A DNA stretch of 64,000 nucleotides from Streptomyces sp. WAC 01529 (GTDB lineage: Bacteria > Actinomycetota > Actinomycetes > Streptomycetales > Streptomycetaceae). The number at the start of each line of letters is the position of its first letter. Position 1 is the stretch's first letter. The notes under the pieces are model-generated. The model searched no databases, was not told the DNA's origin, and saw only the letters and a list, made by a program, of their open reading frames with translations. Both the position numbers and the translations under genes were made by a program. The stretch covers positions 4,041,001-4,105,000 of the forward strand of contig NZ_CP029617.1 in the NCBI RefSeq assembly GCF_003945545.1. Reading direction: 5' to 3'. Below are positions 19,257-31,528 of the stretch, one piece after another.

Positions 19257-20192
19257 ATGTCGGCGACGCGCTACACCTATCTCGGCCCCGAAGGCACCTT
19301 CACCGAGGCCGCCCTCCGCACGCTGCCCGAGGCCGCCGCCCGGGAACTGGTCCCGATGGTGTCCGTGCCGGCCGCGCTCGACGCGGTCCGCGGCGGCCAG
19401 GCGGCGGCGGCGCTCGTGCCGATCGAGAACTCGGTCGAGGGCGGTGTGACCACCACCGTCGACGAACTCGCCAAGGGCGAGCCGCTGATGATCTACCGCG
19501 AGGTCGTCCTGCCGATCACCTTCGCGCTGCTCGTCCGTCCCGGCACGCAGCTGACGGACATCAAGACGGTGACCGGTCACCCCGTGGCCCAGCCCCAGGT
19601 GCGCAACTGGCTGGCCGCCCATCTGCCGGACGCCCTGTGGGAGTCCGCGGCCTCGAACGCCGACGGCGCCCGCCTGGTCCAGGAGGGCCGCTTCGACGCC
19701 GCCTTCGCGGGCGAGTTCGCGGCGTCGACGTACGGCCTCGAACCGCTGGTCAGCGAGATCCACGACGCGGCGAACGCCGCGACCCGCTTCGTCCTGGTCG
19801 GCCGCCCGGCCCGCCCGGCCGCGCCGACGGGCGCCGACAAGACCTCCGTCGTCATCTGGCTGGGCGACGACCACCCCGGCGCCCTGCTCGAACTGCTCCA
19901 GGAGTTCGCCGTGCGCGGCGTCAACCTCATGCGGATCGAGTCGCGCCCGACCGGCCAGGGCATCGGCAACTACTGCTTCTCGGTCGACGCCGAGGGCCAC
20001 ATCACGGACCGGCGTGTCGGCGAGGCCCTGATGGGGCTCAAGCGGATCTGCCCGCAGGTGCGCTTCCTCGGTTCGTACCCGCGCGCCGGGGTGGAGCTTG
20101 CGGATGTGCGGTCGCTGCGGCCCGGCACGTCCGACGGGGAGTTCGCGGCGGCGTCGGATTGGCTCGCGCGCTGCCAGGACGGCCGTTTCTAG
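19257..20192 (+). CDS. pheA: Prephenate dehydratase
   Basis: Converts prephenate to phenylpyruvate in phenylalanine synthesis. 311 residues: a periplasmic-binding-protein-like catalytic domain (about 5-185) with GPEGTFTEAA at the start, IENSVEGGV and the catalytic TRF motif (AATRFVLVG); then an ACT domain (about 198-275) with the phenylalanine-binding GALLELLQEFA and ESRP motifs, so feedback inhibition by Phe is expected. It is not fused to chorismate mutase, as usual in actinobacteria. Confidence 0.95.
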   Translation: MSATRYTYLGPEGTFTEAALRTLPEAAARELVPMVSVPAALDAVRGGQAAAALVPIENSVEGGVTTTVDELAKGEPLMIYREVVLPITFALLVRPGTQLTDIKTVTGHPVAQPQVRNWLAAHLPDALWESAASNADGARLVQEGRFDAAFAGEFAASTYGLEPLVSEIHDAANAATRFVLVGRPARPAAPTGADKTSVVIWLGDDHPGALLELLQEFAVRGVNLMRIESRPTGQGIGNYCFSVDAEGHITDRRVGEALMGLKRICPQVRFLGSYPRAGVELADVRSLRPGTSDGEFAAASDWLARCQDGRF

Positions 20193-20257
20193 CCACTGCT
20201 GGCTGTCGGGCGCCCCGAGAAACCCTCCGGGCGCCATTCCTACCTGCAGATTTACGT

Positions 20258-20568
20258 TGTCCACAGAAGTTATCCACAGGGTCGCATCTCGACCTGGGGA
20301 CAAGTCGACAACGAAGCGCGACATGGTCGACAAATCGGCGCACAGCCCGCAACTCCGTCCACAGTCCCGCACGTCACCCCTCGTCCACTCTTTTCCATTG
20401 ATCAACTCTTTGGAGCGAACCATTTCCACTCGAAAGTGGGTGGCAGTCCGGTTTGGGAAGGGAATCCTTCGCCGGTCCCGCGGCTTTCGGAACGACTACT
20501 TCCGGTGTCCACAGATCTTTCGCACACCCTGTGGATAACTTTTCGGAGATACCCATTCCTGTGGACAA
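20258..20568. other. Cluster of four DnaA boxes outside oriC
   Basis: Exact DnaA boxes are TTGTCCACA (20258-20266), TTATCCACA (20271-20279), and in reverse TGTGGATAA (20530-20538) and TGTGGACAA (20560-20568). Weaker ones (CCGTCCACA near 20356, GTGTCCACA near 20505) lie between. The outer pairs point inward. They fill the 646-bp pheA-serS gap (20193-20838), in which I see no gene. Similar non-oriC clusters titrate DnaA in S. coelicolor. Confidence 0.8.
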
Positions 20569-20826
20569 CCGGAGGGGGCAGGGGCCTCAAGTCCCGGCCC
20601 CCGCAAGGAGTTCGGGTCAAGGCGGCGAGCACGGTCTGCCCCATTTCGGGGAAGGCGCCCCTTTTATTGACCGGGCGTCACCCTGAAGGCGAACGGGCTT
20701 TTCCGGCCGGGCGGGCCGTTTTCGATCTCTGTTCCGACCCCGTTCCGACCGCCCTGAATTCAGTCCGGCAAATCGGGCATAACGTACACAATGGAATACG
20801 AGTCGTGGGGCGCAACCGCTCGACGG

Positions 20827-20838
20827 TAGCCTTGAGGG
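20827..20838 (+). promoter_or_regulatory. Possible leaderless -10 element of serS
   Basis: TAGCCT (20827-20832) lies six bases before the GTG start, with no ribosome site, as for pheA. No T-box leader is visible upstream. Confidence 0.3.
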
Positions 20839-22128
20839 GTGATTGACCTTCGCCTGCTCCGTGAGGACCCCGACCGTGTTCGCGCCTCCCAGCGCGCCCG
20901 TGGAGAGGACGTCGCGCTCGTCGACGCCCTGCTCTCCGCCGACGAGCGGCGCAGGTCGTCCGGCGTCCGCTTCGACGAGCTGCGCTCCGAGCAGAAAGCG
21001 CTCGGCAAGCTGATCCCGAAGGCCTCGCCCGAGGAGAAGCAGGACCTCCTGAAGAAGGCGGGCGAGCTCTCCGCCGCCGTCAAGGCCGCCGACGCCGCGC
21101 AGGACGAGGCCGACGAGGAGACCAAGCGCCTCCTCCAGCAGCTGGGCAACATCGTCCACCCGGACGTCCCGGTCGGCGGTGAGGAGGACTTCGTCGTCCT
21201 CGACACCATCGGCACCCCGCGCGACTTCGCGGCCGAGGGCTTCGAGCCCAAGGACCACCTGGAGCTGGGCGAACTGCTCGGCGCCATCGACGTCGAGCGC
21301 GGCGCGAAGGTCTCCGGCTCGCGCTTCTACTACCTGACCGGTGTCGGCGCGCTCCTCGAACTGGCCCTGGTGAACGCGGCGATCGCGCAGGCGACGGAGG
21401 CCGGGTTCATCCCGATGCTGACGCCCGCCCTGGTCCGGCCGCGCGCCATGGAGGGCACGGGCTTCCTCGGCCAGGCCGCGGAGAACGTGTACCACCTGGA
21501 GAAGGACGACTACTACCTGGTCGGCACCTCCGAGGTCGCGCTCGCCGGCTACCACATGGACGAGATCATCGACGCCGACAAGCTGCCCCTGCGGTACGCG
21601 GGCTTCTCGCCCTGCTTCCGCCGCGAGGCCGGCACGTACGGCAAGGACACCCGCGGCATCTTCCGCGTCCACCAGTTCGACAAGGTCGAGATGTTCTCGT
21701 ACGTCGACCCGGCCGACGCGGAGAACGAGCACAAGCGCCTCCTGGAGTGGGAGAAGCAGTGGCTGACCGGCCTCGGCCTGCCCTTCCAGGTGATCGACGT
21801 GGCCACCGGTGACCTCGGCGCCTCGGCCTCCCGCAAGTTCGACTGCGAGGCGTGGATCCCCACCCAGGGCAAGTACCGCGAGCTGACCTCCGCCTCGAAC
21901 TGCGACGGCTTCCAGGCCCGCCGCCTGTCGATCCGCATGCGCGACAGCCGCGACGGCAAGAAGGTCCTGCAGCCGCTCGCGACGCTGAACGGCACGCTGT
22001 GCGCCATCCCGCGCACGATCGTGGCGCTTCTGGAGAACCACCAGCAGGCCGACGGCTCCGTGTGGGTGCCCGAGGTGCTCCGTCCCTACCTCGGGGGCCG
22101 AGAGATCCTGGAGCCCGTCGCCAAGTGA
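20839..22128 (+). CDS. serS: Seryl-tRNA synthetase
   Basis: Class II synthetase, 429 residues, usual bacterial length. Residues 1-105 form the antiparallel coiled coil that holds the tRNA(Ser) long arm; the catalytic core carries motif 2 around [16 protein letters not shown] and motif 3 near the C-terminus ([17 protein letters not shown]). It charges tRNA(Ser) with serine in the cytoplasm. The GTG start places the family-typical [11 protein letters not shown] at the N-terminus. Its stop overlaps the next start by four bases. Confidence 0.97.
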
Positions 22129-31474: not shown

Positions 31475-31528
31475 TTGTCCACAGAATTGCGAACTGGCCT
31501 GTGGATAACCCGACTTGGCTGTGGATCA
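31475..31528. other. Second group of DnaA boxes
   Basis: TTGTCCACA (31475-31483) and reverse TGTGGATAA (31500-31508) are exact boxes; TGTGGATCA (31520-31528) has one mismatch. They start 4 bp after the MerR stop and end about 85 bp before kptA. Confidence 0.75.

Follow-up and report, generated by a model that had tools for sequence, protein, structure and literature searches.

A DnaA-box cluster between pheA and serS

The window analysed here, a stretch of 64,000 nucleotides in full, corresponds to bases 4041001-4105000 of a single-contig genome of 8.27 Mb. The genes for prephenate dehydratase (pheA) and seryl-tRNA synthetase (serS) are separated in it by a gene-free gap of 646 bp (20193-20838), which harbours a group of DnaA boxes (Table 1). 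As the original prediction had claimed, four of these boxes match the pattern TTRTCCACA exactly and are accompanied by weaker ones. Of the two exact forms, TTGTCCACA is listed as the high-affinity box of S. coelicolor, and TTATCCACA as its equivalent in E. coli and B. subtilis (PMC4285127). The cluster had been placed at 20258-20568; its end is correct, while its start lies one base earlier, at 20257. It had also been said to fill the 646-bp gap, which is right for the length of the gap but not for the filling: the boxes span 20257-20568, and none with up to two mismatches occurs in the 270 bp before serS.

Table 1. Features of the pheA-serS gap, its neighbouring genes and the satellite module (positions in the window)
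Feature	Position	Strand	Basis or remark
pheA, prephenate dehydratase, left neighbour	19257..20192	+	NCBIfam NF008865, 306 bits (cut-off 219)
Exact DnaA box TTGTCCACA, extra left box	20257..20265	+	pattern TTRTCCACA
Exact DnaA box TTATCCACA, main left box, start of left module	20270..20278	+	TTRTCCACA; flanks conserved as GTTATCCACAGG
Weak DnaA box TTGTCCCCA, partner of main left box	20295..20303	-	one mismatch; 25-bp register
Weak box TTGTCGACC, third site of left module	20325..20333	-	two mismatches
Central conserved element	20398..20455	not assigned	lies between the two modules
Weak DnaA box GTGTCCACA, inner partner in right module	20505..20513	+	one mismatch
Exact DnaA box TTATCCACA, main right box	20530..20538	-	TTRTCCACA; flanks conserved
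Exact DnaA box TTGTCCACA, outer right box	20560..20568	-	TTRTCCACA; 30 bp from main right box
Conserved sequence directly before serS start	20820..20838	+	probable promoter
serS, seryl-tRNA synthetase, right neighbour	20839..22128	+	NCBIfam TIGR00414, 437 bits (cut-off 302)
Satellite module, two exact inward-facing boxes	31475..31508		16-bp spacer; between MerR-like gene and RNA 2'-phosphotransferase gene

Exact TTRTCCACA sites number 54 in the 8.27-Mb genome, compared with 16 for the reversed control pattern, and they are nowhere as dense as in the pheA-serS gap. When 54 sites were placed uniformly 20,000 times, four sites never fell within 312 bp, and three did so in only 4 placements. For sites with up to one mismatch the window holds 12, as against 4.6 in shuffled sequences, a number matched by one shuffle in 100. 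Other close groups of exact sites, of two or three each, lie at 31475/31500 in the window and, outside it, near 3183006, 4175174, 4901535 and 6262502. Across 80 loci, exact boxes occur at 5.02 per kb in the gaps versus 0.03 per kb elsewhere, with the reversed control at zero in both.

Several other kinds of element were considered for the gap. No Rfam match with an E value up to 1 was obtained for 20100-20950, and the RNA fold at 20380-20480 is not better than those of shuffled sequences (z -0.14). The gap contains no sigma-70-like promoter, and its single terminator-like site, at 20704, is no more than shuffles yield. Nor does a parS site accompany the cluster, the nearest perfect one in the window being located about 20 kb away; the window features five perfect parS sites, GTTTCACGTGAAAC (40921, 59478, 63833, 63861 and 63901), three of them within 82 bp.

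Conservation and modular layout of the boxes

We assembled a first panel of 170 loci representing the closest pheA matches rather than a random sample, namely the best 80 of at least 572 together with 90 of 293 matching genomes. The panel includes the genome under study and draws on two partly overlapping sources, so that gaps of the same sequence entered the count a single time; nearly all members are Streptomyces, with a few of other name (L028, L049 and L078) among the distinct gaps. A gap was obtained for 169 of the 170 loci, 159 of them distinct, the exception being L119, where serS lies beyond the retrieved stretch. All 159 distinct gaps from these closest pheA matches contain at least two exact boxes (two in 32, three in 108 and four in 19), in the strand order +-- in 107, +- in 30, ++-- in 19, -- in two and ++- in one. 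A search of the family covered 61 genomes and contributed 43 new loci, 40 of which gave a gap, including 34 from 13 other genera; one of these 34, L176, is identical in sequence to L078, which the first panel already contained, and genera g2, g5 and g15 lie outside the coverage of the gap comparison. Each of the 34 gaps from other genera likewise contains two or more exact boxes, although five of them (L181, L195, L196, L201 and L213) have no exact box on the minus strand. For L189, L212 and L214 no gap was obtained; there are three exact boxes in the L189 and L212 stretches and none in that of L214.

The original prediction was to fall if the boxes were not conserved in related genomes. With at least two exact boxes in every gap, both in the 159 distinct ones and in the further 40, that refutation fails. 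The conservation across gaps and the density of the boxes together refute a chance origin of the cluster, and we regard it as practically inconceivable that chance or neutral conservation accounts for it. In the stretches read around 22 serS loci of genomes that do not belong to the family, which are the best-scoring of 110 outside-genus genomes and not a random sample, TTNTCCACA does not occur, and inheritance of the cluster from deeper Actinomycetes was rejected on this ground. Since the boxes are found in all gaps from the other genera and TTNTCCACA in none of these outside loci, the cluster would seem, within the present sampling, to be characteristic of the family. A natural disruption is seen in L119, where an ISL3-type transposase gene has come to lie between the left and right boxes, about 1.8 kb apart; an undivided locus is therefore not strictly required.

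To describe the arrangement of the boxes, 191 of the 198 distinct gaps were aligned by offset from the main left and main right boxes. Because this anchoring demands exact boxes, their conservation in the anchored set is built in, and the evidence for conservation comes solely from the flanks, the partner boxes and the spacing. The flanks of both main boxes are conserved. In the left module, 78% of the 191 loci carry a weak minus-strand box 25 bp on from the main box and 57% a third, likewise minus-strand box 55 bp on, while an extra box precedes the main box by 13 bp in 24% and by 12 bp in 35% (up to two mismatches throughout). In the right module, a weak plus-strand box with up to two mismatches is found 25 bp before the main box in 93% of the loci, and a minus-strand box 30 bp after it in 60%; in the 126 first-panel gaps with two exact right boxes, the outer and main boxes are 29-32 bp apart. 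Because box offsets and strands match, the gap is seen to comprise two modules running in the same direction, each consisting of an inward-facing pair at 25 bp and a third box 30 bp further on.

The inward-facing pair, TTRTCCACA-N16-TGTGGAYAA, is rare. With up to one mismatch it occurs three times in the genome under study, at 20270-20303, 20505-20538 and 31475-31508; two mismatches add no site, and at three mismatches there are four. The third of these sites belongs to a satellite module 11 kb nearer to dnaA, which features a conserved spacer and, downstream, a conserved third site, TGTGGATCAAAC (L250, L256-L273). A survey of 30 genomes, the one under study included, returned 59 such pairs with up to one mismatch: 37 lie in the gap, another 19 on its dnaA side at 7-16 kb from pheA, and three elsewhere. 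The gap contains the pair in 27 of the 30 genomes and a satellite module is present in 19, while genomes G031, G305 and G317 have no pair with the 16-bp spacer at up to one mismatch.

Helical phasing around a central element

The distance between the main left and main right boxes, available from 157 of the 159 distinct first-panel gaps, falls into peaks at 256-262 bp (97 gaps), 267-273 bp (39), 278-281 bp (10) and 288-291 bp (4), the remainder being 250 bp in three gaps and 301, 303, 14 and 185 bp in one each. At a period of 10.5 bp, the left-right distance has a vector strength of about 0.81, as compared with 0.13 when the distance is taken to the pheA stop and 0.43 when it is taken to serS. 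Between the modules lies the conserved central element, the core pattern of which occurs once, without mismatch, in the genome under study. In 163 loci, the distance from this centre to the left box is 161-165, 172-175, 183-186 or 193-194 bp, with one at 132 bp, and that to the right box mostly 94-97 or 106-108 bp, with scattered others. On a 10.5-bp lattice, the position and period of which were chosen after the distances were known, 157 of 163 left-centre and 162 of 163 centre-right distances come within 2.1 bp, where about 40% would do so by chance; among loci outside the main peak the counts are 46 of 51 and 23 of 24. The two distances are uncorrelated (r 0.07-0.10), and therefore each half seems to be held in phase by itself. 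Some left-right distances from other genera lie off the lattice, such as 244-245 bp in g14 and 274 bp in g16, amongst others.

We also mapped length changes by parsimony on a serS tree, which was possible for 185 of the 191 loci and, for the motif-anchored halves, for 142. Among the changes of 4-60 bp, those of 8-11 bp are favoured, accounting for 15 of 20 in one half and 10 of 22 in the other, and an equal number of changes drawn from the pheA side reaches the observed phasing in about one of 10,000 draws for either half (P ~1e-4, a value resting, as does the one below, on one gene tree and crude parsimony). When the spacing test was repeated with anchoring on the motif, 143 of the 191 loci could be placed, some of them falsely. 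The distance to pheA is not phased, whereas the distances between modules and centre change in steps of about 10.5 bp. The main right box is in addition phased to the serS start, a distance that had been meant as a control: its peaks lie near 244, 254, 265, 276 and 287 bp, the phasing is weaker and its period is nearer to 11 bp (P 5e-5 against the pheA side). This may mean either that the serS promoter belongs to the same structure or that DnaA regulates serS.

The spacing points to a putative DnaA complex that is stereospecific rather than a loose sink, and suggests that the DNA would be given a defined fold by the proteins bound to it. The strict IHF core WATCAANNNNTTR is present in none of the 163 centres, while a form with the first base relaxed, DATCAANNNNTTR, is present in 84; because the strict core is absent, no bending protein can be named for the centre. 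The two-module layout with phased spacing around a conserved centre, of which we found no description in open-licence full text, appears to be new here.

Proximity to oriC and possible function

In all 30 genomes dnaA lies on the serS side of the gap, at 77-161 kb (median 87 kb, 90 kb here), a distance taken between the end of pheA and one end of the part of dnaA that matched. Streptomyces oriC lies between dnaA and dnaN, and we take the dnaA-dnaN stretch of the genome under study to be its oriC region. Like the gap, Streptomyces oriC has many DnaA boxes; unlike the gap, however, the oriC region of this genome has no exact box, its boxes being 13 with one mismatch, and it contains no inward-facing pair with a 16-bp spacer within three mismatches. 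One exact box is located directly upstream of dnaA, and 16 of the 54 exact sites fall within 100 kb of oriC, where 1.3 are expected. No second protein of this genome passes the DnaA family cut-off.

Three DnaA-box clusters of S. coelicolor, D78, H24 and H69, were reportedly described by Smulczyk-Krawczyszyn et al. in 2006; D78 is said to have an affinity for DnaA about eightfold above that of oriC, and its deletion to make replication more frequent. A third cluster of the genome under study, situated outside the window at genome positions 4175174-4175373, about 23 kb on the other side of oriC, comprises three exact boxes and one with a single mismatch and may be a counterpart of H24 or H69. 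In S. coelicolor, serS is SCO3961 and pheA is SCO3962, and we assume that both are carried on cosmid D78. The pheA-serS gap resembles D78 as a DnaA-box cluster outside but near oriC in the same genus. It is denser than chance, lies within a short segment around oriC in all 30 genomes and, judged by sequence alone, has better boxes than oriC (four exact against none). The predicted equivalence to D78, H24 or H69 is partly supported: the proximity to oriC, the serS/pheA synteny and the exact boxes here versus none in oriC fit a locus of the D78 type, and the gap is probably the counterpart of D78, a reported DnaA-binding brake on initiation. Three papers cite the 2006 work for S. coelicolor clusters that repress untimely initiation like datA, and name DnaA-box clusters of B. 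subtilis in the same sense, one of the papers placing those of S. coelicolor close to oriC (PMC5742627, PMC4585315, PMC10950094); for B. subtilis the likeness to our locus is one of cited function. The E. coli locus datA, which represses untimely initiation, carries DnaA boxes on either side of a binding site for a DNA-bending protein (PMC5835720, PMC5742627). By analogy, datA would be the nearest model for the working of the locus, as DnaA boxes flank a central site in both. The central site of datA is, however, an IHF site; with no strict IHF core in any of the 163 centres, the locus is not assigned to datA by membership, and the DnaA-ATP hydrolysis that datA promotes would be conjecture here.

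We consider it reasonably probable that the gap is a local locus of the D78 type, a putative high-affinity DnaA site outside oriC that would restrain initiation and would be a built structure in addition to a sink. DnaA would bind cooperatively to the left and right three-site modules, while a protein on the central element would bend or bridge the DNA and the modules would keep a fixed helix angle to each other. At about 90 kb from oriC, the locus would be copied soon after initiation; its capacity would thereby double, and the doubled locus would draw DnaA, or active DnaA-ATP, away from the new origins. S. lividans DnaA self-associates through domain I, which together with the long domain II has been proposed to link the distant box clusters inside oriC (PMC13270200); the long linker of Streptomyces DnaA might, though, be expected to relax phasing rather than impose it. 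A more far-reaching version, in which the locus would be an independently evolved datA counterpart of the Streptomycetaceae, a three-part phased complex with its own bending protein that switches DnaA off, is coupled to the state of translation by way of the phased serS promoter and works with a satellite module 8-15 kb away, strikes us as doubtful.

The sink of the original prediction may be only part of the picture. If the boxes merely held DnaA and their layout mattered little, the presence of exact boxes here and none in the oriC region would make sense, as would the early-copied position, and plasmid-borne datA and mioC sites do titrate DnaA in E. coli (PMC5835720). Such a passive sink has no need for phased spacing or for a conserved centre outside the boxes, and since these two features argue for a structured complex, we judge it unlikely. 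A purely replicative role, in turn, does not explain why the main right box is phased to the serS start, which counts against it and makes a transcriptional role a live rival. DnaA at the gap could act mainly as a transcription factor for serS that would couple DnaA activity to translation capacity, as the conserved sequence directly before serS would also allow; with the boxes in the window stopping 270 bp short of serS and a module of the same kind standing 11 kb away beside other genes, we consider this distinctly improbable. That the locus would reactivate DnaA instead of restraining it is, in our estimate, very improbable: the DARS elements are small DnaA-box clusters with a set orientation (PMC5835720), but the nearest studied relatives, the S. 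coelicolor clusters, are among those cited above as repressing initiation. The D78-type reading, with phasing as part of its structure, is the one we favour.

To our knowledge, the pacing of initiation in the many-chromosome hyphae of Streptomyces is poorly known. With a widely conserved locus, the spacing of which seems to be selected for helical phase, the loose-sink idea would give way to a structural prediction open to testing by insertions of 5 bp and of 10 bp, and the conserved central sequence of the locus may serve as bait for a partner protein.
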